This document shows positions 3,508 to 56,977 of a stretch of DNA of 64,000 bases, piece by piece (within the stretch, counting starts at the first letter, position 1; each line of letters begins with the position of its first letter). The stretch is from NCBI GenBank assembly GCA_021234155.1, contig JAJEKV010000047.1:10850701-10914700 (forward strand), written 5' to 3'. The notes below the pieces were generated by a model, which did not search any database, was not told where the DNA came from, and worked only from the letters and a program-made list of their open reading frames with translations. The position numbers and the translations under genes were made by a program. The stretch comes from Isoetes taiwanensis. Lineage: Eukaryota > Streptophyta > Lycopodiopsida > Isoetales > Isoetaceae.

Positions 3508-4900
3508 TGGTGGGGGAAATCTCCTCTATGGTTCGCAACTTCATATGGGGAGGCAATGAGGAAGGGGCGGTCGTCAAGGTGGCCTGGTAGAAATGCGTGC
3601 ACCCCAAGGCTGCGGGTGGACTCGGCTTCTTCAACCTCTCCCTGCATGGCAAGGTCCTCTTGTCCAATTTCGTCTTTGCGATTCTTGAGAATGCACTTGA
3701 CTCCCCGGGCATGGTCTTGCTTCATTAGTCACTGTCTCACTCGATAGTTTTCCACAAGCCGTACGTGCCTGCGCGGCTCCCCTGGGCGTTGTTCGTGGAT
3801 ATCAGGATGTATGCTCATGCCTCTCCTTTTTACGAAGGGCTCCCCGCGAGCACGGGAGCAGTCCACCATTTGTTTGCAATTGACGCCACCCGGGTGCATT
3901 CGGTTGGGACGATCGCCTTTGGTGGATCCCGTTCGGACGGTACATTACCTTTGGCACCGGGCGGCTTCGCCGATCCCCGAGTTCAAAGCCATGGGCGCAG
4001 CGTGGGTATTGATGGTGGGGAGTGGTATGTCGGCGGGCAGATGGCACCCCAGCAACTTTTTTGCCACGGGTTTCGGCTTCAAGAGCGGGATTGTGCTATT
4101 CGGTGCGGGTGGCTAATGCTACGCCATTGAACCCATGAGCATCGGGGCGTGTGTGGAAGTGTCACAAAAGTAGATCCCTCAAATTTCGTGAAAATCTGTT
4201 ATGAGCTTTTTGGCAATACAGGATGAGCTGCCTCCTTCGGACGGCTGGAGTCTCCAGGTGCCGAGAGATGGTTGGGCCAACATCTGGAGATGGATGTGGA
4301 AGGGTATTGCTGTGGCAGATTGTGCACCGTTCCCTGAGGGTGAACACGTGGGTTCATAGGATCAACCCGCGGATCAGCGACCTGTGTTCTATGTGTGGTG
4401 CCTGTGTAGAGACCCTGGAGCACTACATGTTTCTTTGCTCAGATATCCAGCCGGCATGGCAGTGGGTCCAGCGCCTCTTCTACACCTCCCTCCGTAGTCA
4501 AGAGGTTCTTTTGGGGATGTACCCTAGCAGATGGTCCCAGCTTCAGAGTCTGACCTTTCATTTGTGTAAAGCCTGGTTGCTGTGGCTCATTTGGAAGCGA
4601 CGACGCATGAAGGTGTTCAGGAATGCGGAGGTGCAGCCTGGGGCTTTGATCCCACAGTTGAGGTACAAACTATATCTTTCTTACCTGGCGTCCCCTCGAA
4701 AAGAGCAGTTCAAGGCAGCGGTCTGGGAAAGAACCCTCCTCATTGTAGACAGTGTTGGCAGGTTTGTGTCATGAGTCGTAGATAGGTATACATGCCAGGT
4801 GGGTACTCGCTCCAGTGTGGACAAGAGTACCCTAATATCGCTCATCTTGTATTTATTCTGGATTAATATTAGTTAATTTGATCTTTCAAAAAAAAAAAAA
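3508..4900 (+). pseudogene. L1-type LINE ORF2, 3' fragment
   Basis: A 5'-truncated LINE holding the region after the reverse transcriptase and the C-terminal zinc-binding (zf-RVT) domain. The frame around 3530-3600 reads MVRNFIWGGNEEGAVVKVAW and then meets a stop. The segment 4223-4774 is open and contains the CSMCGACVETLEHYMFLC zinc-binding pattern followed by LLWLIWKRRR. A 13-base A run at 4888-4900 is the 3' tail. Several stops and frameshifts make it inactive. The same LINE, with more 5' sequence, lies at 47735-49858. Confidence 0.85.
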
Positions 4901-5777
4901 CTTAGAGAGGATCTCTTGGATGGTAAGGGAATCTTGAGGGTCTCTACAGGAATCTCCTTGAGGGAATCTTAGAGTCTAGAGGAGTTTATGCAGAGCCAAT
5001 TTTGGCATTGACTTCTAAAGTTTGACTTCAAGTTTTCAGGTAGCTCTTGCCACTTGAAGTTGACTTTGACTTCTACGAGTTGACATCTAAACGGCAAGAG
5101 AATTTTTTGTATTGACTTTCTCTCTTGATGTTGACTTTGACTTCTTGAGGTTGACCTTGACTTCAAGGTTGAGTTTTGATTTTTAAAGGGAATTTAGAGG
5201 GAAAATCTTTCTCACGTGGTGTTTCTCACTTTTTATAGAAAGAAATGTTAACTACCTTCGTAGAGGTTTGATTTTTTAATGCTTGTTCATGCAAGGTATA
5301 ACTCTTATTTGTGTGTGATTATATGCGCTTTACATAGGCATATCCCATATCCACACATGTATACTTATGTTATGATGGGGTCTTCCAAACCTCTAGAATG
5401 GTAGACCTAAAAGTGATAAGAAGTGGTAGAACCTAAGAGACTTGAAAGAAAAATTGGACATTTTCTTATGTTTTCTTAGGTCTTATTGGCGCAGATTCGA
5501 AACATATGCATTTTCTCTACGTCCACTATGGTTTGTAGGTGAACATGAAATGCAATGCAAATACATCTAACAAGCATTTGCACATAATCTTCTCCATTAG
5601 TCTCCTTGAAATGGGCTTTACTAGTTCTTAGAAAATGCTCTTCTTTGAGTTATCTAACTTGCAAATTTGCATAACCATGTCCTCCTTTTGTTGAACATAA
5701 ATTAATCTAATCTAATCTAATTTTATTCTAATATACTATGCATAAACATCTTTTCAGAGGACATCGTCTCTTTTTAG
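4901..5777. repeat. spacer repeat rich in TTGACTTTGACTTC
   Basis: Non-coding, AT-rich, with many TTGAC motifs between 5000 and 5180. It recurs at 49859-50745. Similar TTGACTTTGAC text flanks the left side of the other LINE copy (47520-47570), so the LINE probably inserted into this repeat. Confidence 0.7.
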
Positions 5778-6604
5778 AAGATGGTCAATATGAACGATGC
5801 TCGTCTTCTAAACTTGGCTTGCACCGTACCAATAGGGTCCCAATGCCTCAAGGCCTACTGGAGGGAAAGGAGAGCTCAGTGGTTGGTCAAGTGGGATGTG
5901 CAGGAGCACAGGTGTATACAGGTGCAAACAGAAGCAGATCGCCATAGCTTGAGACAGTACCTTGACGCTTGCTTCCTCAGCAAGCTTTGGGATGCCAATG
6001 TCGTTGAACAGGTCAAGACAACACATTACCAGCACCACATAAATCCCACATTGAATGGGGCCTGCAATGCTACCTGCATACCCAGCTGCCTATGAAGAAG
6101 TGCATACTCATTGCCTTGATTCGCACAGGTGCATACCGTCTCCAAATCGAGACAAATAGATGGATTGAGGAGCCACGTCATGACAAGATTTGACAATGCT
6201 GCCAAGGGAGAGTAGTTGAAGATGAGTGTCACATCGCAGAGCTGTCCAGCGTATGAACAAATCTGGACACGCTATGCTGGGTTGGTCAGGCCCGACCCGC
6301 CGCTCCATGTGCTATTGAACACAGCTTCGGTACGGATGCTGGGATCATACCTATAGGAGGTCATGGATATGTGGGCTCAGCTATATCTTCAGACTCACCT
6401 TACATGTATACATATTTCATGATGTATATTTGTATAGTTTATCAGCATTCTTATTATTGCCACGGGTTTTCCCTCAAAAACTTTTTGGAACAGGAGTTTT
6501 TTAACGTGAACAATAATAAGCTTGTTGCGCTCCTTTTTTGGTCTCATAGGCCGATTGGTCTCCGCGGACGATAGAAAATATTCAAATCTATTCTATTCTA
6601 TTCT
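5778..6604 (+). pseudogene. non-L1-type LINE, 3' fragment (family B)
   Basis: The open segment 5781-6095 encodes the C-terminal part of a LINE protein (RHSLRQYLDACFLSKLWD). It continues after a stop as a degraded zinc-binding end with a VVEDECH pattern around 6200-6240. The 3' untranslated end has the block TTTTTGGTCTCATAGGCCGATTGGTCTC and ends in TTCTA repeats at about 6585-6604. Other copies of the family are at 16511-17147, 45085-46900 (minus, with the reverse-transcriptase domain) and 50746-52345. It is 5'-truncated and not functional. Confidence 0.75.
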
Positions 6605-6732
6605 AATGCAATTCCAACAACAAGTAATAAGTTCTTGTGGATAATGGATTAGAAATCACTTAATATCTAAATAGTACATTCATTGTAGTAACTATCGGTC
6701 TATTTTAGCCTACGCCTCCTTTTAACATATTT

Positions 6733-12466: not shown

Positions 12467-13160
12467 TGTTGACCGGGTTTTTGGCACCCGGTCAACATGA
12501 AAAAAAAAGAGAAAAGAAAAACCATTGGGGGTCGATTATAAAGCCTAAATGTTGTAAAGGTCTAAGGCACCAAAAATAAAAAAAGGGCCTAGATCTAGTT
12601 TAAATTTAAGGGCTTCTAAGAGTTTTTAATGGTTGAAGGGGGTACATTATCTAAGGCTAAGATGAAGAGGCAAGATCAAAGGTGGAGATTAAAAAAGGCA
12701 AAAATTAAAGGTTGAGATAAAAAGGCAAGATCAAGGGTGGAGATGAAGGGGTCAAAATTAAAGGTTGAGATGAAGAGGCAAGATCAAAGGTGGAGATTAA
12801 GAGGCAAAAATGAAAGGTCAAGATGAAAAGTAATTGTTTATAAAAGATTCTTGAGGAGCACGAGCTCCTCCTCTTGCCTTGCTCCAAATTCTTGGGGATG
12901 GTGGCAGTTCCTCCTTGAATTGGATCAATGGCCCCTCCATGGTTCAGAGACATGGAGGGACCCTTTTGTATTTGAAGTTTTGTGCTTATATGAATTTTCT
13001 TTTGGGCCCAAAGATATTCCATTCCAAGTTTTTCTTCAAATCTCTTATTCTACACTGATTTCATATTGCAAGCCTTTGATTTCATATTGCAGCATCAAAG
13101 TGATCCTGATTTCTGCCTTTGAGGCCACCTGTTGGGGATTGTGGGAAAAATCCGCCAACA
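12467..13160 (+). repeat. LTR 1
   Basis: Starts TGTTGACCGGGTTTTTGGCA, whose first 30 bp form a hairpin with ACCCGGTCAACA. U3 contains about 50-bp repeats of the phrase GAGGCAAGATCAAAGGTGGA, and a TATA box lies at 12837-12846. The end is set at CCGCCAACA just before the primer site. Confidence 0.8.
12837..12846 (+). promoter_or_regulatory. LTR TATA box
   Basis: TTTATAAAAG lies after the U3 repeats. The identical box is in LTR 2 (15159-15168) and LTR 3 (18132-18141). Confidence 0.6.
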
Positions 13161-14790
13161 GAATGGAGGTCCTACCGAGATAAAGCTCTTCCCCAGGATC
13201 AGATTTTGGTGCTGCTGTTTCATGTCTTCCATACCTTAAATCCTGCTTTCTATTCTCTGCCATTTACATTCTGCTGTCCCGTTTTGATTCCCTGATATCC
13301 TGCCATTAGTACTCTGCCATTTACATTCTGCTGTCCCGTTTTGATTTCCTGATATCCTGCCATTAGTATTCTGCTCTGGCAAATGAGATGGAAAAAAGGA
13401 GTTCAAGGATGTTTCTTTAAGCAGCAAAGTTACAAGTAAAAAAGAATAAAAAGTTGCTGCTTGAAGTTGTTACAGGAAGGAGAAGCTGCGCCTTTGCGCC
13501 TTGCTGAAGATTGCTACAGAAAATTGAAATACTTTTTGGCTTGTTTTTTGGAGAGCTAGCATGGGCCAGCCTTCCAATCCTATTCTTTGTATGCCGTGCT
13601 CTGAATGTGCCCTGTTTTAAAAAAGAAAAGAAAGAAGACCTCTGTTTCTGCCATTGCCAGTCTGCGTTTGCATTCCATCTGTGTTGTGCCATGCCATCTT
13701 CTGCCCACATTGCCATAGCCATGCCATCTTCTGCAAGCGCCCAAAATTCTGCCTACCTGCAAGAAAACAAAAGGGGAGCTCATCTGCCGCCATCCCTGTT
13801 TGCTGCTGACGAATCTGCACAAGGACAGAGGCGAAAACCATAGCCTTGGCCGAACCTGCGGAAGAAAAGGAAGGAAAGAAGTGAAAAGGAGGGGGAAAAG
13901 AACAGCATGAACGCCATGGCTTCTCCTAAATTCGAGCTGTATCACAGCCGTAGCCGCCCGCCATAGCCGCCCATCACAATTTTTTGACCCTTGCACAAGT
14001 TTTTTTATTTTTTTCTCTCCTTTCGTTTCTTTTTTCTAAACCTTTGCTTTCTTCTAACCTTTGTTTTTCATGTTTTTTTCCTTTCGTCTTATTTCTAACC
14101 TTGCTTTCCATGTTTTTATTTTGCCTTTCATCACATATTTCTAACCTTTGCTTTCCATGTTTTTTACCCTTTCATTCATTTTCTAACATTTGCTTCCAAA
14201 TTTCAATATTTTCTCACTCTTTCATTCTAGTTTTTAACCATTGCTTTTATTTTTTTGCTACTATTTTCTCACCCTTGCAATAATGTTTCTTTACATTTAT
14301 GGTCCATCCTTGTTGCCTCAAAACATCATTTTTTGCCCTATTGCTACACCATTGCCACAATTTTTTGTTTGGGCGCCGCCCCTTTTGCTTATATTAGATT
14401 ACATGTGTCTTTCCCTAAAGCCCAAAATTACCATTGATTTTCTATCATCATGGCACTCATTATTATCATCATTCTATCAAAGTTTGAAGTCTCGGATATC
14501 AAAACCTCGATTACTATCACCAAATTATTATCATCATTTTATCATATCAAAATTTCAATTATTATGGTGTTGGAGTACACCTTAAAACCTCCAAATATTA
14601 TTATTATTCTATGGTGTTGGAGTACACCCTAAAACCTCCAAATTATTATTATTATTTCGAGTTCGAAGTCTCGGATATCAAAACTTCGGTTGTGTTCTTT
14701 ATTGAGTCTAAGGGACCAACTATTGTACTAAATAGATGAAAAACTTTGAAGTAAGAGGGCCGAGGGACCGGCCCATTTTTGTTTATGAGA
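13161..14790 (+). repeat. internal region 1
   Basis: No gag-pol. It contains a pyrimidine-rich tract at about 13995-14290 and ATT-repeat microsatellites near 14590 and 14645, all repeated in internal region 2. Confidence 0.75.
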
Positions 14791-15482
14791 TGTTGACCGG
14801 GTTTTGGCACCGGTCAACATGAAAAAAGAGAAAAAAAACCATTGGAAGAGGGGTCGATTATAAAGCCTAAATGTTGTAAAAGGTCTAAGGCACCAAAAAA
14901 TAAAAAGGGCCTAGATCTAGTTTAAATTTAAGGGCTTCTAAGAGTTTTTAATGGTTGAAGAGGGATACATTATCTAAGGCTAAGATGAAGAGGCAAGATC
15001 AAAGGTGGAGATTAAAAAAGGCAAAAATTAAAGGTTGAGATAAAAGGCAAGATCAAGGGTGGAGATGAAGGGGTCAAAATTAAAGGTTGAGATGAAGAGG
15101 CAAGATCAAAGGTGGAGATTAAGAGGCAAAAATGAAAGGTCAAGATGAAAAGTAATTGTTTATAAAAGATTCTTGAGGAGCACGAGCTCCTCCTCTTGCC
15201 TTGCTCCAAATTCTTGGGGATGGTGGCAGTTCCTCCTTGAATTGGATCAATGGCCCCTCCATGGTTCAGAGACATGGAGGGACCCTTTTGTATTTGAAGT
15301 TTTGTGCTTATATGAATTTTCTTTTGGGCCCAAAGATATTCCATTCCAAGTTTTTCTTCAAATCTCTTATTCTACAACGATTTCATATTGTAAGCCTTTG
15401 ATTTCATATTGCGGCATCAAAGTGATCCCCGATTTACGCTTTTGAGGCCACTGTTGGGGATTGTGGGAAAAATCCGCCAATG
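14791..15482 (+). repeat. LTR 2 (middle)
   Basis: Same start, U3 repeats and TATA box as LTR 1. It is shared by both units of the array. Confidence 0.8.
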
Positions 15483-17744
15483 TAATGGAGGTCCTACCGA
15501 GATAAAGCTCTTCCCGAGGATCGATTTTGGTGTCATTGTTTATGTCTTCCATACCTTTTTAAATCCTCGCTTATTCTCCGCCATTTACATTCTCGGCCGT
15601 CCCGCTTTGATTCCCCGATATCCCCCGCCATTAGTACTGCCATTTACATTCGGGTTGTCCCGTTTTTGATTTTTCTGATATCCCGCCATTAGTATTCGCT
15701 TTCCGCAAATGAGATGGAAAAAAGGAGTTCAAGGATGTTTCTTTAAGCAAAGAAAGTTACAAGTAAAAAAAGAATAAAAAGTTGTGCACAGTTGTTACAG
15801 AAGGAGAAGAAGCCTTTGCGCCTTTGGTCAAGATTGCTACGTAAAATTGAAATACTTTTTGGCTTGTTTTTGAGAGCTAGCATGGGCCAGCCTTCCAATC
15901 CTATTCTTTGTATGCCGCGGCTCGAATGTGCCCCTGCTTTAAAAAGAAAAGAAAAAGACCTCTGTTTTTCGCCATTGCACCAAGGCTTGTATTCCATCCG
16001 GTGTTGTGCCATGCCATCTTCGCCCACATTGCCATAGCCATGCCATCTTCGCAAAGCCAAAATGATGCCACCGCAAGAAAACAAAAGGGGAGCTCATCTC
16101 GCCGCCATCCCTGTTTGTCGACGAATGACCACGCACAAGGGACGTAGGCGAAAACCATAGCCTTGGTCGAACCTGAAGAAAAGGAAGGAAAGAAGTGAAA
16201 AGGAGGGGGGAAAAGAACAGATGAACGCCATGGCTTCTCCTAAATTGAGCCGATCACGCCCATAGCCGCCATCACAATTTTTTGACCCTTGCACAAGTTT
16301 TTTTATTTTTTCTCTCCTTTCGTTTCTTTTTTCTAAACCTTTGCTTTTCTTTCTAACCTTTGTTTTTCATGTTTTTTCCTTTCGTCTTATTTCTAACCTT
16401 GCTTTCCATGTTTTATTTTGCCTTTCATCACATATTTCTAACCTTTGCTTTCCATGTTTTTACCCTTTCATTCATTTTCTAACATTTGCTTCCAAATTTC
16501 AATATTTTCTCCTTGCTTCATGGCCCAAGCTTTGGGATGCAGAGAGTCTGTCACATGTCAAGGTGGCAAATTATCGACGGCGGGTTAATCCCATGCTCCT
16601 CAGGGCCCACACCACTACTGCTCCGCACCCATCTACCCATGAAAAGCGCAGGGTGATTGCTTTCCATTCGATGACAGTGCACACCACCTCCGATTGAGAC
16701 GAGGGGAGATGGATTCGGGAGCCGTGAGGACGAGTCCGGTCGCCATCAGCGCCATTGAGGATGAAAGTCACGCCCTGCCCTGGTCCCTGTCACGGGCATA
16801 TCCGGGCCTCGGTATGCTCTGTTAGGTTGTGCCCCATCGCCTTGCATGAGCACGAGCATGGCCTCCTCGAGGCTTGTTGGGATCGTGCCTCCGGGAGGAA
16901 ATGGATACTGTGGACTTCGGTTATGCCCCCTGTCCGACATTAACCTCACTGTACTTGTGATTATGTATATAACTATGCAAGATGTCAAGATCCTTATTGC
17001 TACTATTAAGGTTTTCCTTAAAACCCTTTGGGGCGGGGTTTTTTAATCCCGTAGTAATGTCCGGCTTTGCTCTCTCTTTTTTGTACTTGGGTCCCATAGG
17101 CCAGCTTGGTCTCCGGGGATCTATAAAATCATATTCTATTCTATTCTAGTTTTTAACCATTGCTTTTATTTTTTTGCTACTATTTTCTCACCCTTGCAAT
17201 AATGTTTCTTTACATTTATGGTCCATCCTTGTTGCCTCAAAACATCATTTTTTGCCCTATTGCTACACCATTGCCACAATTTTTTGTTTGGGCGCCGCCC
17301 CTTTTCCTTATATCATTTTTGCCAAAAAATAGCCATCTTGCCCCAAACATTACATGTGTCTTTCCCTAAAGCCCAAAATTACCATTGATTTTCTATCATC
17401 ATGGCACTCATTATTATCATCATTCTATCAAAGTTTGAAGTCTCGGATATCAAAACCTCGATTACTATCACCAAATTATTATCATCATTTTATCATATCA
17501 AAATTTCAATTATTATGGTGTTGGAGTACACCTTAAAACCTCCAAATATTATTATTATTATTCTATGGTGTTGGAGTACACCCTAAAACCTCCAAATTAT
17601 TATTATTATTTCGAGTTCGAAGTCTCGGATATCAAAACTTCGGTTGTGTTCTTTATTGAGTCTAAGGGACCAACTATTGTACTAAATATATGAAAAACTT
17701 TGAAGTAAGAGGGCCGAGGGACCGCCCATTTTTGTTTATAGAGA
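15483..17744 (+). repeat. internal region 2, interrupted by a LINE fragment
   Basis: Collinear with internal region 1 but more diverged. Many differences fall where region 1 has CTG and region 2 has CG or CCG. A LINE fragment is inserted at 16511-17147, and an extra about 30 bp appears near 17311-17340. Confidence 0.75.
16511..17147 (+). pseudogene. family B LINE 3' fragment nested in the LTR element
   Basis: The start (CTTGCTTCATGGCCCAAGCTT) matches the family B coding end at about 5966. The degraded zinc-binding region, the GGTCCCATAGGCCAGCTTGG block and a terminal ATTCTATTCTATTCT tail follow. Compared with the empty site in internal region 1 (14220-14235), about 14 bp of target are missing rather than duplicated. 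Confidence 0.75.
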
Positions 17745-18446
17745 TGTTGACCGGTTTTTGGCACCCGGTCAACATGAAAAAAAGAGAAAAGAAATAACCA
17801 TTGGAAAGGGAAGGGGGGGGGGGGGTCGATTATAAAGCCTAAATGTTGTAAAGGTCTAAGGCACCAAAAAATAAAAAAGGGCCTAGATCTAGTTTAAATT
17901 TAAGGGCTTCTAAGAGTTTTTAATGGTTGAAGAGGGGTACATTATCTAAGGCTAAGATGAAGAGGCAAGATCAAAGGTGGAGATTAAAAAAGGCAAAAAT
18001 TAAAGGTTGAGATAAAAAGGCAAGATCAAGGGTGGAGATGAAGGGGTCAAAATTAAAGGTTGAGATGAAGAGGCAAGATCAAAGGTGGAGATTAAGAGGC
18101 AAAAATGAAAGGTCAAGATGAAAAGTAATTGTTTATAAAAGATTCTTGAGGAGCACGAGCTCCTCCTCTTGCCTTGCTCCAAATTCTTGGGGATGGTGGC
18201 AGTTCCTCCTTGAATTGGATCAATGGCCCCTCCATGGTTCAGAGACATGGAGGGACCCTTTTGTATTTGAAGTTTTGTGCTTATATGAATTTTCTTTTGG
18301 GCCCAAAGATATTCCATTCCAAGTTTTTCTTCAAATCTCTTATTCTACACTGATTTCATATTGCAAGCCTTTGATTTCATATTGCAGCATCAAAGTGATC
18401 CTGATTTCTGCCTTTGAGGCCACCTGTTGGGGATTGTGGGAAAACA
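17745..18446 (+). repeat. LTR 3 (right end)
   Basis: Same start and body as the other LTRs. It ends GGGAAAACA directly before the TAGGG target duplication, lacking the ATCCGCCAA seen near the ends of LTRs 1 and 2. Confidence 0.8.
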
Positions 18447-47734: not shown

Positions 47735-49858
47735 GGCCTATGATAGTGTTCGGTGGGAGTTCTTGAAAAGGATGATGTTAGCCTTTAGATGTGGTGAGAG
47801 CTTTACGGCAGTGGCTATGAAGCTCTTAACGTCTGCCAGAGCCACCCTCCTGTGTCACGGCGAGTTATCTTCGATCTTTAGTGTGGGGCGTGGGGTTCGC
47901 CAGTCATGCCCTTTGGCGCCCTTCCTCTTTACCATCATAGCGGAGGCCCTCTCGTAGTTGTCGACCTCCGCAGTGGAGGCGGGTGTTATGGAGGGGCTGA
48001 GGATGGCAGACGGGTCGCAGCAGATTGGGAGTCAGTACGCTGATGACTCGTTCCTCTTCCTGCAGGCCGATGAGAGGAATCTGTTAAACACGAAGGACTT
48101 CTGGATACATTCTCCCATTGCTTCTGGCTGCCTCATGAATTGGACGAAGTGCTCGGCATTGTGGCCGGCAACTGACCCCATGCCCGTGGTCGTGTCCCAA
48201 TTTTCTTGGCGAACGCAGCCGTGGGGCACATGCTCTAGGCTTTTGGGTATCCCGTTCGGCATCGACATCTCGGCATCAGGTGTGTGGGAGGACATTCTGG
48301 TGGGACTGCGTCGGCACCTTAATTGCTGGAAGGGGAGAAACTGTCCATGGCTGGCAGGGTCATAGTGGCGAAGTCCGTCCTATATTCAACTCATATTTAT
48401 ATGGCATCTAACATCCTGGCGCCAGAAAGCAAGGTGCGGGAAATCTCCTCTATGGTTCGTAACTTCGCATGGGGAGGCAATGAGGAAGGGGCGGTCGTCA
48501 AGGTGGCCTGGCGGAAATGCGTGCGCCCCAAGGCTGCGGGTGGACTCGACTTCTTCGACCTCTCGTTGCATGGCAAGGTCCTCTTGTCCAAGTTCGTCTT
48601 TGCAATTCTTGAGAATGCGCTTGACCCCCCCGGGCATGGTCTTGCTTCATCAGTCGCTGTCTCACTCGATAGTTTTCCACAAGCCGTCCGTGCCTGCACG
48701 GCTCCCCTGGGCATTGTTCGCGGATATCAGGACGTATGCTCATGCCTCTCCTTTTCTGAAGGGGCTCCTGCGAGCCTGGGAGCAGGTCCACCCGCTGTTT
48801 GCAATTGACGCCACCAGGTGCATTCAGTTGGACGCATCGCCTTGGTGGATCCCGTTCGGACCAGGTACATTACCTTTGGTACTGGCGGCTTCCTTCGATC
48901 CCTGAGTTCAGCACAGATGGGCGCAGCGTGGGGTATTGATGGTGGGGGAGTGGTATGTCGGCGGGCAGCTGGCACCCTGGCAGCTTTTTTGCCACAAGTT
49001 TCGGCTTCAAGAACGGGATTGTGCTATCTGGGTGCGGGTGGCTAATGCTCTGCCGCTGAACCCCCCGCAGGCATCAGGACGTGTGTGGAAGTGTCACCCG
49101 AAAGTAGATCCCTCAAATTTCGTAAAATCCTGTTATGAGCTTTTGGCAATACAGGATGAGCTGCCTCCTTCGGACGGCTAGAGTCTCCAGGTGCCGGGAG
49201 ATGATTGGGCCAACATCTGGAGATGGGTGTGGAACCCAATCTCGCCCCCCAAGATTCAGGTATTGCTGTGGCAGATTGTGCACCGTTCCCTGAGGGTGAA
49301 CACGTAGGTTCACAGGATCAACCCGCGGATCAGCGACCTGTGTCCTATGTGTGGTGCCTGTGTAGAGACCCTGGAGCACTGCATGTTTCTTTGCTCAGAT
49401 ATCCAGCCGGCATGACAGTGGGTCCAGCACCTCTTCTACACCTCGCTTGGTAGTCAAGAGGTTCTTTTGGGGGTGTACCCTAGCAGGTGGTCCCAGCTTC
49501 AGAGTCTGGCCTTTCATTTGTGTAAAGCCTGATTGTTGTGGCTCATTTGAAAGCGACGACGCATGAAGGTGTTCAGGAATGCGAAGGTGCAGCCTGGGGC
49601 TTTGATCCCACAGTTGAGGTACAAACTATATCTTTCTTACCTGGCGTCCCCTCGAAAAGAGCAGTTCAAGGCAGTGGTCTGGGAAAGAACCCTCCTCATT
49701 GTAGACATTGTTGGCAGGTTTGTGTCATGCGTCGTAGATAGGTATGCATGCCAGGTGGGTACTCGCTCCAGTGTGGGCAGGAGTACCCTAATATCGCTCA
49801 TCTTGTATTTATTCTGGATTAATATTAGTTAATTTGATCTTTCAAAAAAAAAAAAAAA
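47735..49858 (+). pseudogene. L1-type LINE ORF2, larger 5'-truncated copy
   Basis: Starts within the reverse transcriptase (KAYDSVRWEFLKRMMLAF), then GVRQSCPLAPFLFTIIAEAL, a stop, and the catalytic box QYADDSFLF at about 48030. The thumb region follows (LSMAGRVIVAKSVLYSTHIY) and the zf-RVT end with LCPMCGACVETLEHCMFLC-like text at about 49340-49400. The tail is A15 at 49844-49858. Stops at about 47956 and several frameshifts disable it. The part from about 48437 on is the counterpart of 3508-4900. Confidence 0.85.
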
Positions 49859-50745
49859 TCTTGAGAGGATCTCTTGGATGGTAAGGGAATCTTGAGGGTC
49901 TCTACAGGAATCTCCTTGAGGGAATCTTAGAGTTTAGAGGAGTTTATGCAGAGCCAATTTTGGCATTGACTTCTAAAGTTTGACTTCAAGTTTTCAGGTA
50001 GCTCTTGCCACTTGAAGTTGACTTTGACTTCTACGAGTTGACATCTAAATGACAAGAGAATTTTTTGTATTGACTTTCTCTCTTGATGTTGACTTTGACT
50101 TCTTGAGGTTGACCTTGACTTCAAGGTTGAGTTTTGATTTTTAAAGGGAATTTAGAGGGAAAATCTTTCTCACGTGGTGTTTCTCACTTTTTATAGAAAG
50201 AAATGTTAACTACCTTCGTAGAGGTTTGATTTTTTTAATGCTCGTTCATGCAAGGTATAACTCTTATTTGTGTGTGATTATATGCGCTTTACATAGGCAT
50301 ATCCCATATCCACACATGTATACTTATGTTATGATGGGGTCTTCCAAAGCTCTAGAATGGTAGACCTAAAAGTGATAAGAAGTGGTAGAACCTAAGAGAC
50401 TTGAAAGAAAAATTGGACATTTTCTTATGTTTTCTTAGGTCTTATTGGCGCAGATTTGAAACATATGCATTTTCTCTACGTCCACTATGGTTTGTAGGTG
50501 AACATGAAATGCAATGCAAATACATCTAACAAGCATTTGCACATAATCTTCTCCATTAGTCTCCTTGAAATGGGCTTTACTAGTTCTTAGAAAATGCTCT
50601 TCTTTGAGTTATCTAACTTGCAAATTTGCATAACCATGTCCTCCTTTTGTTGAACATAAATTAATCCAATCTAATCTAATTTTATTCTAGTATACTATGC
50701 ATAAACATCTTTTCAGAGGGCATCTCTTGATCGCCACATCGTCTC

Positions 50746-52345
50746 TTTTCAGAAGATGGTCAATATGAACGATGCTCGTCTTCTAAACTTGGCTTGCACC
50801 TAGGGTCCCAGTGCCTCAAGGAAGGGTAAATTTTAACGGCCCTAAATGTTTTTCTATTCAAATTAAGATTGGCTAAACCTATGAAAAACAAAAGTTCTTA
50901 GATTTTTTTCTTGGCGAAATTTGATAAAATAAAACCCTTTAGTTATCTTCCCACTTGGCTAAAATGTAAAATTTATATGACATGAAATTATGATGTTGGC
51001 AATTTTTTCTTGGTCCCCAACTAAAGTGCAACTATTTAACTTCAAACTTTGAGCACTGATTATTGATTCAATATGCTTCTTTTACAAAATGATAACAAAG
51101 TTGTTCAAAGTACAATTCATAAGGAACAAACAATATCGTTTGAAGGAACATGCATGTTTAAGTTGGGGTCAAATGCATCCAAATGGTGTATTTGGGGATG
51201 AAGCACTTTAGGGTCAACAATTGGAAGAAGAGATCACTATTATTTAAAGCTTAAAATGTGAACCATATAGCATTCTTTGTAGCATTTATCCTAAACAACT
51301 TATAGATACAAATTCAAAATATGATTGAGGTCGCTAATGGCAATTCCTAAATGAAAGAGGCCCCTGAATAGAATTGGCATGGCTATTTGAATTGATAAGG
51401 GTTCTCCTAATCGACTTTAGAGAAGGCGATTCAGTACACCATGCAGCAAACAATCCTAGCTAAACTCTAAGCGTTCAGAATTTACCCCGTTTTGGAGTGG
51501 CTAAATTATACTTTTTCTAAAAAATTTGCCTTTATAAACTTTAGCCATGAAATTTGACAAAAGGTCTAAAAAATCGCCATTTGGCAAATTTTAGCCACTC
51601 TTTATTACCCTGGCCTCAAGGCATGCTGGAGGGAAAGGAGAGCTCAGTGGTTGGCCAAGTGGGATGTGCAGGAGCACATGTGTATACAGGTGCAAACAGA
51701 AGCAGATCGCCATAGCTTGAGACAGTACCTTGACGCTTGCTTCCTCAGCAAGCTTTGGGATGCCAATGCCGTTGAACAGGTCAAGACAACACATTACCAG
51801 CACCACATAAATCCCACATTGAACGGGGCCTGCAATGCTACCTGCATACCCATCTGCCTATGAAGAAGTGCATACTCATTTCCTTCATTCGCAAAGGTGC
51901 ACACCGTCTCCAAATCGAGACAAGTAGATGGATTGAGGAGCCACGTCATGACAAGGTTTGACAATGCTGCCAAGGGAGAGTAGTTGAAGACGAGTGTCAC
52001 ACCGCAGAGCTGTCCAGCGTATGAACAAATCTGGACACGCTATGCTGGGTTGGTCAGGCCCGACCAGCCGCTGCATGTGCTATTGAACACACTGGGATCA
52101 TACCTGTAGGAGGTCATGGATATGTGGGCTCAGCTATATCTTCAGACTCACCTTACATGTATACATATTTCATGATGTATATTTGTATAGTTTATCAGCA
52201 TTCTAATTATTGCCACGGGTTTTCCCTCGAAAACTTTTTGGGACAGGAGTTTTTTAACCCGAACAGTAATAAGTTTGTTGCGCTCCTTTTTTGGTCTCAT
52301 AGGCCGATTGATCTCCATCAAATCTATTCTATTCTATTCTATTCT
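50746..52345 (+). pseudogene. family B LINE fragment split by a hAT element
   Basis: The parts 50746-50821 and 51622-52345 correspond to 5778-6604. The C-terminal coding piece RHSLRQYLDACFLSKLWD is at about 51710-51770. The tail TTCTATTCTATTCT ends at about 52345. Confidence 0.75.
50822..51613. mobile_element. non-autonomous hAT transposon, 792 bp
   Basis: Flanked by perfect 8-bp duplications CCTCAAGG (50814-50821, 51614-51621). Copy A of the block has the single CCTCAAGG empty site at 5846-5853. The ends AAGGGTAAATTTTAAC and, inverted, CCAGGGTAATAAAGAG share the core AGGGTAAW. Subterminal TTTTAGCCA/TGGCTAAA motifs recur near the right end. No transposase. Confidence 0.85.
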
Positions 52346-52981: not shown

Positions 52982-53166
52982 TGATTAGCTCAAGCAAATC
53001 ACATGATTGTCTCGAGCAAATCATGTGATTCGCTCCGAGGAATCTTTAGATTCGCTCGATTGTCTCGAGCAAATCATGTGATTCGCTCCGAGGAATCTAA
53101 AGATTCGCTCGAGCAAATCATTGATTCGCTCCGAGGAAATTAAAAAATTCGCTCAAGCGAATCACA
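52982..53166. repeat. tandem, internally palindromic 52-bp repeats upstream of the reductase gene
   Basis: Units at 53008-53059 and 53060-53112 are nearly identical (CTCGAGCAAATCATGTGATT, then CGCTCCGAGGAATCT). Shorter partial units lie on both sides. Each unit contains GATTCGCTCCGAGGAATC and AATCATGTGATT inverted symmetry. The array ends about 240 bp before the start codon. Confidence 0.8.
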
Positions 53167-53406: not shown

Positions 53407-56400
53407 ATGCAGAAAAACATGGCGGAGAATCAGCACATGGGCAGAGTTTGTGTCACCGGGGCTTCCGGTTTTTTTGCATCCTGGCTGATCAAGAGGCTCC
53501 TGGAAAAGGGATATCATGTGCGCGGAACTGTTAGAGACCCAGGTGCAAAACCAAATCCTTTTTCCAATTATCTAATGTAAGTACTCTTCATTGCAGGTGT
53601 AGTTTTCCTTTGAATTGCAACAGATAGCAAAATACATCTTTCCTAGAAGTTGAATATATAAGCAATGTGGAGAAATTTATGTGTCAATGTACAGTATTAT
53701 TTCTGATAAATCTCTAGATATTGAAGCTCTTTACATTCAATTGCCATGCTTACAGAAAATTTGAAGAAAACTGCTCATCTGCTTGTTCTTCCTGGTGCCA
53801 ATGAGAGGCTTGAATTGGTAAAAGCAGACCTAACTGTCGAAGGCAGCTTTGATGATGCAGTTGCTGGATGTGAAGGTGTCTTTCACACAGCTAGCCCCGT
53901 AACTTTTAGTGCCCAAGATCCAGAGGTAAAAGAGACTCAGTCTTTTAAGATCAGTACAATCTTAAACAATTGAAGAACCACTTTAAGCTCATTTTTCAAC
54001 TTATCCTTTTCATTGCATGCTTCCAGCACATCCTAGACAGACAACTCCATTTTCAACCATCACTAGAGCTGCTTATGCAATACCATACAAATCAAAAGAG
54101 CATCTCGTGACTCTATTTATATCTCAATAAAGTTTCCTTTCCACTCCTGCTCTTTGTTAGAAGCAACTGTGCACCGTTTCAGCTAATTTTCTCTTAACAG
54201 CATATAATCTCCTCTATATATTCTGCACTGTAATCCCAGGTAGGTTCAGTTGCCATTAGAACGCAAAGTGAAAATTTTATCTTTATATTTGGATTGCACT
54301 TATTCAACCTTAGAGTCGTGCTTTTCTTCTCTTGAAGTGTTAGACAATCACATAAAAGTACGTGTGTTAATCACTATTCTCCAAAAAGTCATGAAGGATG
54401 AAAGTCGAGCTCATCATTTGATCAGTGATTGGACTAGACATAAGGACAATAAGAGAGGACTGCTCTGAATTTGGGGTCTAGAATCAAGTTTTCTTTTGCT
54501 TGTTGTGGACCAAAAAAAACATAAAATAAGTCACACCTTTCTCCCATCTCCAGAAACAAGTCCATGGAAGATGATACAATTTAAGCCTGAATATCAGGTT
54601 CCCTCATTCAAGTTCGACTCATGTTATTCCATTTGCCTTCTGCAGCTGTAACCTAAACCCATGTTTTACATGGAAGATGAGCTTTCCTATTTGGGACAGT
54701 GAAGCTTTCATCTTTTCACACTCTAGGCATTGGAATAAATACTTTATTCATCATGAAAGGGCAGTTTGTTATTCATTCATATTAAATTCTGACAGTTTAC
54801 ATTTTTCTTCTTCCTACTTTTATACATTTGTTTATTAATGGCTTGCAGAAGGAAATTATTGAACCAGCAGTTAAAGGCACACTGCGCTTGCTGCAAGCTT
54901 GTGTGAACGCATCAGTGAGAAGAGTAGTGATAACCTCATCATGCTCTGCTGTTGGGTTTTTAGACCTTGATGATCCTACGATATTGGCAGATGAATCATG
55001 CTGGAGTTCTCTGACACGTTGCCGACAAGAAAAGGTAAGAAGATGATGTTCTACCTGTATTATTATTTTGGGGCTCATGCTGACACCATGTCCACTAGTG
55101 TTGTTTATGGTGAATTATGATTTGTGAGGTTGCTATGCAGCAATTCTCATAAAATCAAGAAAATCACCAAAATTCTCTGCTAATAACTGCTCAAAATTGA
55201 AAAGTTAGGCGGCTATTGATGAAGTTCAAGCATCTTTGAATTAGAAAGGTGTATAATGATCTATTATCACGAAAGTAGTGAACATGTTTTAGAAATTTAT
55301 GCCAGTGGAAAGTAGGGCTAGTATTGATTAAGTTTAAGAAACTTTGGAGATAAGTACATCTAATACTCTATTATCTATTTTCACTGAAGTGGTTCATTAT
55401 AAGGCCTGGATATTTAGATATGGATCTGCCGAACAAAGTGAGATACTCTATGGGGCAGTTTAGAGTGTCATCTCACCAGTTGGAAATTGAGGTTGGTAGG
55501 GCGAAAAATATTAGTCGTGAGGATCGGAAGTGCCCAATGTGCGATCTAAACATGGTCGAGTCAGAAGAACATTTTATTTTTACCTGCCCAACCTACTACA
55601 TTATTAGAGGCAGATATCATTGTCTTTTTAGAGACCCCACATCTCTACGACAGTTGGTAGAATATTACGATCAGAAATGTGTATCTCACTTTGTATATGA
55701 ACTATCTCTAGAAAGGAGAAATATTCTCAAACAAAAGAATCCAATGGGCCTGAAGCAGACAGAAATAACTAATTTCTTTTCATCTGAGACAAACGATGAT
55801 AAGATGTTAGTAGACTCACCACAGAAGAGGAAGTATCCTGACCCTAAAGGGGTAACTTTGGCACTGTCTAAAAAGATTAAACGATCAGTAGCCATGAAAC
55901 ATAAAAAGTTTTTCCAGAAGAGGCCAAGCAGCAAGCAGCAAAGCAAGCCAAGAAGGGGTATTATGAAGTACTTTACAGCAGTCACAGGAACGAATGGGCT
56001 GTCTCCATCAAACACTATCTGCGCAGTTTCTTTGATTTTCAATTGTTAAACTTAATATTTTTTTGTTTCCATACTTTAGATAACAGGAGGGTTCTCCTCC
56101 TGGAGGTCCTGAATTCTGTTTATGTTATGGTCTCATAGACCCTTCGGGTCTTACGTAGACGTTAATAAATCTTTCTTTCTTTCTTTCTTATATCCAGAGA
56201 TGGTACCCTACTTCTAAACTGCTGTCAGAGCAGGCAGCTTGGAAGTTTGCAAAAGAACACAACCTAGACCTAGTTACAGTCATACCATCGCTCATTATTG
56301 GGCCTGTCCTTGCTTCTGAAGCCCCAACAAGTGCAGGTCTTATATTATCAATACTGAAAGGTAAACGAGCCTGCTTCATTAATCAAGGTTTTATCAAGCT

Positions 56401-56977
56401 TTTACCTTCCTGATATATGTTCAGGTGATGTATCCAAACTCGAGCCCTTCCTTAGGACAGGACTGGTCCACCTTGACGATGTTGCTGCTGCGCATATCTT
56501 GTTGTATGAAGAACCCAAGGCTGGAGGGAGATACATTTGTAGTGCATTATTTGCCAACATGAAAGAGATCCTTGACTTCATGGCACAACGTTATCCTAAA
56601 TATAACATTCCAACAGAGTATTATTCTTATTTCCTTTGTCTTTCCCCCTTTTTTAAATGCTCTTGTAGGTTATAATGTTGGCTACATATAGATTGTGGCA
56701 TTTACTGCTTTGCAACACAGTTCTGTTATTTCAAACGAACTCTATATTCTCATGTACTTGAAGTCTATATTATGCAATGACAAATGCATCACATTAGGAT
56801 AGATACTGATTATGGCCTTATTTTTGCTGTTTCATGTATAGGATTGAAGAGGGGAGTGCTGTTTTCAGTCGAGATATGACAAGTGATAAGTTGCAAAAAC
56901 TTGGTTTCCAGTATAAAGGCCTTGCGGAGATGTTGGATGATTGTATTTCTAGTTTGGAAGCAAAAGGTTTTGTATAA
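53407..56977 (+). CDS. cinnamoyl-CoA reductase / dihydroflavonol reductase-like protein, six exons
   Basis: NADP-dependent short-chain reductase of the extended CCR/DFR family (phenylpropanoid or related ketone/aldehyde reduction, cytosolic). Exons: 53407-53542, 53756-53925, 54849-55034, 56198-56360, 56425-56617, 56842-56977. All introns are GT-AG and phases join without a stop, giving 327 residues, normal for the family. Residues 16-24 (VTGASGFFA) form the nucleotide-binding glycine loop and R43 of GTVRDP fits NADPH choice. ITSS at 130-133 and YPTSK at 167-171 supply the Ser-Tyr-Lys active site. The end is [17 protein letters not shown]. The KNWYCYGK signature of true CCR is absent (RWYPTSK instead), so a CCR-like or tetraketide/DFR-like role is more likely than lignin CCR. 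A second ATG at 53419 has the better context (ACATGGCG). A LINE relic fills much of intron 3. Confidence 0.9.
55400..56190 (+). pseudogene. LINE 3' fragment inside intron 3 of the reductase gene
   Basis: The frame 55420-56049 encodes the C-terminus of a LINE protein: [20 protein letters not shown], then [20 protein letters not shown] (C2HC-type zinc-binding end), then a Lys-rich tail of about 110 residues with NFFSSETND and SKKIKRS. The 3' untranslated part has two hairpins (AGGAGGGTTCTCCTCC and AGACCCTTCGGGTCT) and ends AATAAAT plus CTTT repeats at 56170-56188. It is 5'-truncated but the retained 209-codon frame is unbroken, so it is young. It belongs to a different lineage from the other LINEs here. 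It lies on the sense strand of the host gene. Confidence 0.85.

Follow-up and report, generated by a model that had tools for sequence, protein, structure and literature searches.

Retroelements at splice acceptors

Splice acceptors supplied by transposons are known. In the dog PMEL merle allele, as described in PMC7349775, a SINE lies at an intron/exon boundary with its tail as the pyrimidine tract, and the length of the tail decides between the original and a cryptic acceptor. Exonization of antisense Alu elements, as summarized in the same source, uses poly(T) as the tract. In a study of MET exon 14 a sense L1 lay 4 bp before the exon in three of nine cases, in which the L1 reportedly appears to cause skipping (PMC12934576), and mouse L1 is described as carrying internal splice sites on both strands, with L1 exonization (PMC2176070).

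Here we describe a LINE just upstream of exon 4 of a reductase gene in Isoetes taiwanensis, within a stretch of 64,000 nucleotides (the window). As in merle, a retroelement sits at an intron/exon boundary with its tail placed as a pyrimidine tract, the use of the tail in the window being predicted. According to PMC7349775 the merle SINE is in reverse orientation, has a poly(T) tail and a 15-bp target-site duplication, and keeps the original acceptor, which is used when tails are short. In contrast, the window LINE is in sense orientation and its tail is itself pyrimidine; there is no duplication, and a native branch-like motif and part of the native tract were deleted. The element tail acts as the tract in Alu exonization too, but there a new exon is made, whereas the window exon keeps its old AG. 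The MET L1 insertions are reported with poly(A) tails and target-site duplications of 9-17 bp (PMC12934576), unlike the pyrimidine tail, target loss and open frame at the window locus. LINE-borne splice sites are common to mouse L1 and the window, where the end of the LINE would serve a host exon. What would be unusual is a sense-strand pyrimidine tail that replaces, in one step, the signals deleted by its own insertion. We found no plant case of a LINE-tail acceptor in the literature searched, which is no proof of absence in print.

The reductase gene

The gene is predicted to have six exons, which join into an open frame of 327 codons. Its features are:

53407-56977, + strand: dihydroflavonol-reductase-like (SDR/epimerase) gene, predicted six-exon model, 327 aa
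53407-53542, 53756-53925, 54849-55034, 56198-56360, 56425-56617, 56842-56977, + strand: predicted exons 1 to 6
55035-56197, + strand: intron 3, 1163 nt (366 nt in the paralogue that lacks the LINE)
56198-56360, + strand: exon 4, 163 nt (3n+1)

The protein matches the Pfam Epimerase profile (E 3.8e-28) and PDB 2c29, a dihydroflavonol 4-reductase (E 4.3e-89, residues 13-326, with small gaps). This whole-length match and the intact frame place it among the dihydroflavonol/cinnamoyl-CoA reductase-like SDRs. The initial annotation had described a frame intact on both sides of the LINE, and we find the same; the alignment to 2c29 spans the join of exons 3 and 4, at which 2c29 is three residues longer. 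This gap was not caused by the LINE, since a LINE-free paralogue (L004, see below) has letters identical to those of the window at the join.

Direct and inverted repeats of the CGAGCAAATCATGTGATTCGCTC type, each about 22-53 bp long, interleave at 52983-53154, about 250 bp 5' of the start codon.

The LINE in intron 3 and its family

Intron 3 contains the following features:

55391-55394, + strand: GGTT at the 5' junction, microhomology common to target and LINE, with the breakpoint somewhere within it
55395-56189, + strand: 5'-truncated sense LINE comprising a C-terminal coding end and 3' UTR, with family copies elsewhere
56164-56169, + strand: AATAAA, polyadenylation-signal-like, in the LINE 1 nt 5' of the tail, as read from the sequence
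56171-56189, + strand: (CTTT)4CTT tail, LINE-derived pyrimidine tract; the last letters are ambiguous and could be target

The 3' end of the element, GTTAATAAAT(CTTT)4CTT, stops at 56189, 8 bp short of exon 4 at 56198, which bears out the earlier observation that the CTTT tail of a sense LINE ends just before this exon.

We searched the genome (1,658,258,908 bases in 1110 contigs) for relatives. Besides the window itself, the 40 candidates scored of 761 found at first look gave at least 39 long matches of 94-97%, the majority covering 55391-56189, together with five other pieces. The 3' 26-mer of the LINE occurs exactly 135 times genome-wide, and a 24-mer taken from it has 343 occurrences when as many as two mismatches are allowed; controls gave 0 in both searches. 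For comparison we used the first 60 of 100 listed copies among the 135 exact ones, which with the window copy makes 61. Their 5' ends lie at many points and the length of (CTTT)n differs between copies. Varied 5' truncation with a repeat tail is as expected of a LINE; the shared 3' end is by construction, since copies were picked by the 3' 26-mer. Reverse transcriptase (RVT_1, E 1e-22), a part that the window copy lacks, is encoded by L002, a longer relative. The C-terminal zf-RVT match of L002 (E 0.022) is below the cut-off, and no Pfam match was found for a third frame of this relative. In an alignment with 33 spanning copies, the window LINE has seven private substitutions in 797 columns (~0.9%), and the closest of the 33 is 1.8% different.

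Target-site duplications are usual for LINEs, although not universal. No such signal was detected in 25 copies of the family, the window included (28 with a usable 5' end minus the near-duplicates L037, L045 and L067): the longest word shared between flanks averages 4.92 nt, versus 4.76 in mismatched pairs. Flanks share 8-9 nt in 2 of the 25 copies, as do about 2% of mismatched pairs. Insertion without a duplication may thus be a habit of this family, the window copy being the one for which we have an empty site.

The empty site

Searches with each LINE flank identified two further copies of the reductase gene region. In each search all three first-look candidates, the window included, were scored; weak matches can be missed by this method. 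The informative copy (L004/L007, here the paralogue) shares the contig of the window, ~91 kb upstream; the two flank searches put its identity at 96-98%, and it is without the LINE. Its gene is intact. It differs from the window gene at 18 of 328 codons (stop included), 7 silently and 11 non-silently; for so few non-silent changes the binomial P is 0.096, not significant as a test of constraint.

The intron of the paralogue ends in CACTGAAGTGGTTAACATATTTCTCATATCCAG, and the acceptor before insertion reads GGTTAACATATTTCTCATATCCAG/AG (the slash marks the intron/exon boundary). The window has CACTGAAGTGGTT, the LINE and then ATATCCAG, in the form GGTT-LINE-ATATCCAG/AG, and where the window has the LINE the paralogue has AACATATTTCTC between GGTT and ATATCCAG. 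The native remainder is:

56190-56197, + strand: ATATCCAG with the acceptor CAG, identical in the paralogue, one letter different in the second copy (L005)

About 9 bp of native intron had been proposed to survive. The remainder is indeed short; its sure part is ATATCCAG, 8 bp, and the TTTCT 5' of it is ambiguous, fitting tail or target through common letters, with one mismatch adjoining. A target-site duplication for the window LINE was sought in the empty-site alignment and none was found. Instead, 6-12 bp of target were lost. This loss broke the native TTAAC after TT, removing its A, and took at least part of the native tract, so the comparison with this same-genome paralogue agrees with the initial annotation in that no intact native tract stands between LINE and exon. 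The polarity is that of an insertion in the window, because the presence of AACATATTTCTC in the other copy is hard to explain by loss of a LINE. Of the ungapped sites, 22 of 1936 to the left of the insertion and 44 of 1410 to its right differ between the two copies; thus both the duplication and the insertion look recent, with roughly similar ages.

The LINE joins the intron cleanly at both ends, and as far as the breakpoints the gene sequence on either side stays close to that of the paralogue. Junction microhomology and the loss of a few target bases are what is expected of a real insertion. Misplacement of the LINE beside exon 4 during assembly is on these grounds very improbable, even though the assembly that appears to be the source used Nanopore reads (PMC8566536) and the copy of the reductase region at C1045:518817 is full of small indels.

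This second copy (L005/L008, G000:C1045:517317-521328) is 85-88% identical to the window and closest to the paralogue. It also lacks the LINE. Many small indels and private mismatches make it look like a poorly polished or decayed duplicate. We rejected it as an outgroup or independent witness: it is indel-rich and sides with the paralogue at 56 of 61 two-state sites and with the window at 5. At five more sites all three copies differ.

The exon 4 acceptor

By position in the empty-site alignment, LINE sequence forms the tract before the AG of host exon 4. Upstream of the tail is a further candidate signal:

56162-56166, + strand: TTAAT, candidate LINE-derived branch point, its A at 56165 being -33

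The last AG upstream of the acceptor is at 56157-56158, and the 39 nt that follow it contain no strict YTRAY other than TTAAT. The equivalent interval of the paralogue likewise has a single strict YTRAY, TTAAC, with its A at -19. For comparison we assembled 29 acceptors, namely 24 from paralogues (30 rows minus five near-duplicates and the unclear exon 5 of L075), four more from the window gene and one from the LINE-free paralogue. A strict YTRAY lies 3' of the last upstream AG in just 10 of these 29, so the motif is dispensable here and the choice of branch A is uncertain in either copy. Both the tract and the branch point of this acceptor had been attributed to the LINE in the initial annotation. 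The empty-site alignment makes this attribution very probable if exon 4 is joined at 56198, with the assignment of the branch A less secure given the 10 of 29.

The window acceptor is pyrimidine-rich by the standard of these comparison acceptors of the same gene family and genome. From -33 to -4 its pyrimidine fraction is 0.80 and its longest pyrimidine run is 20, values each reached by 1 of 29, and its T fraction of 0.60 is reached by 2 of 29. With a weight matrix built from 28 of these acceptors (without that of the paralogue), the window acceptor scores 9.0 bits and that of the paralogue 0.5, within a leave-one-out range of -2.1 to 12.3. The matrix is crude, its acceptors having been placed by eye, from one gene family and in four cases from the window gene itself. 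It both over- and underpredicts, because the AG at 55140, common to both copies and presumably unused, receives 9.7, and the presumably working site of the paralogue only 0.5. On these scores a weak acceptor seems to have given way to a stronger one through the insertion. This ranking of the tail above the acceptor it replaced goes beyond the initial annotation, as do the target-site deletion and the competing acceptor at 56086 in the LINE, described below.

We propose the following account, which we consider probable as a whole. A LINE whose family numbers a few hundred copies was reverse-transcribed near the 3' end of intron 3, within its last 20 nt; no target-site duplication arose, and 6-12 bp of target were lost. 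The insertion cost the intron the A of the branch-like TTAAC and at least part of its pyrimidine tract, with ATATCCAG kept. Since the element landed in sense orientation, its GTTAATAAAT(CTTT)n end set a run of 20 pyrimidines, preceded by a branch-like TTAAT, in front of the old AG, and splicing of exon 4 most likely continues at 56197/56198 through these LINE-derived signals. The insertion, the deletion, the surviving native bases, the intact frame and the spacing of the motifs are established by the sequence comparison; we infer both the identity of the branch-point A and the use of the 56198 site in most transcripts.

The two gene copies form a natural before/after pair in one genome: the same intron with its ancestral acceptor, and with branch-like motif and tract swapped by a single transposition. 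The pair allows a direct test of how little of the native 3' splice site is needed in a lycophyte. It could likewise be used to ask whether a LINE with a pyrimidine tail is tolerated next to an exon, a position in which poly(A)-tailed LINEs reportedly cause skipping.

Competing sites and outcomes of other splicing

The LINE itself contains competing AGs:

56078-56086, + strand: AG ending at 56079 (5.1 bits) and AG ending at 56086 (9.4 bits)

These lie behind a T-rich run, and their use would add 118 nt (56079) or 111 nt (56086) to the transcript. The T-rich motif is present in 37 of the 61 LINE copies under a relaxed pattern, and in part of the remaining copies the 5' truncation reaches beyond the motif. 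In silico splicing at 56079 gives a premature stop at codon 175, and at 56086 at codon 188. An early stop also results from exon 4 skipping (a frame shift, since the exon is 3n+1), from intron retention, and from use of the AG at 55140 or 56199. The 327-codon frame depends on the 56198 acceptor, because every alternative tried gives a premature stop. The open frame and these stops argue indirectly for joining of exon 4 at 56198, and the retention of the frame is mild evidence that the normal exon 4 site works. Seven private changes have accumulated in the LINE, yet the 327-codon frame is open, which counts in the same direction.

If instead 56086 or 56079 were the main site, the LINE would be exonized with a premature stop, and this gene copy would be knocked down, or be an unnoticed null, with the paralogue doing the work. 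We consider this unlikely. The AG at 56086 scores slightly above the exon 4 site (9.4 versus 9.0) and lies upstream of it, which counts against our account; both internal AGs follow a TTAAT and the T-rich run, and loss of function could be tolerated given a near-identical intact paralogue. However, the frame is open across the six predicted exons, and scores as crude as these cannot rank sites 0.4 bits apart.

Splicing at 56198 through the LINE tail also has to be weighed against a young, neutral or damaging insertion with mixed splicing, skipping or premature polyadenylation at the AATAAA, in which the tail has no lasting role. The LINE has diverged by only ~0.9% in private changes, constraint on the window copy is weakly supported (P 0.096), and the AATAAA could end transcripts early; the last two points count against our account as well. 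The human L1 at -4 of MET exon 14, which appears in PMC12934576 to cause skipping, offers a precedent. That L1 is likewise sense but has a poly(A) tail, whereas the window tail is a pyrimidine run that outscores the site it replaced, and we regard a young insertion of this kind as improbable.

Other copies of the LINE

The first AG after TTAAT is 18-60 nt away in 43 of the 61 LINE copies, a proportion to be read with the facts that random flanks would often give the same and that TTAAT and the tail start belong to the 26-mer used to pick copies. Among the 60 copies with 3' flanks, 19 loci besides the window have an AG within 45 nt of the tail followed by at least 35 open codons. Single frames from nine of these (L010, L019, L027, L040, L049, L051, L054, L059, L060) gave no Pfam match above the cut-off, the best being DUF4995 (E 0.01, 16.3 bits versus 28.4); the other ten of the 19 loci are L013, L014, L023, L029, L037, L038, L041, L045, L052 and L064. 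By eye, the frame at L049 is copia-like and that at L054 LINE-like, with a Pfam match in neither. At L040 and L059 a CAG directly follows the LINE tail, forming an acceptor-like TTAAT-(CTTT)n-CAG, with no Pfam match in the frame behind it.

With 343 tails and the 39,461 genes reported for Isoetes taiwanensis (PMC8566536), and assuming five introns per gene and a 20-bp target, chance would give about 0.4 sense insertions at such a short distance from an acceptor. We claim neither an excess over chance nor a genome-wide pattern. A speculative extension, which we hold to be doubtful, is that the 3' end of this family, TTAAT plus (CTTT)n, acts as a mobile 3' splice site that is complete except for the AG. 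A sense insertion just before an exon could then repair its own damage, and a slippage-variable tail could tune exon inclusion, as in merle.

Duplications and repeat arrays in the window

Window positions 4895-6732 and 49854-50821 both match one stretch upstream of the L004 paralogue, at 86-87%, which points to a complex history of duplication around the gene. Three arrays at 12653-12827, 14976-15149 and 17948-18122, spaced 2.3-3 kb apart, share one 53-bp consensus unit. Their arrangement over 12653-18122 suggests a tandem triplication.
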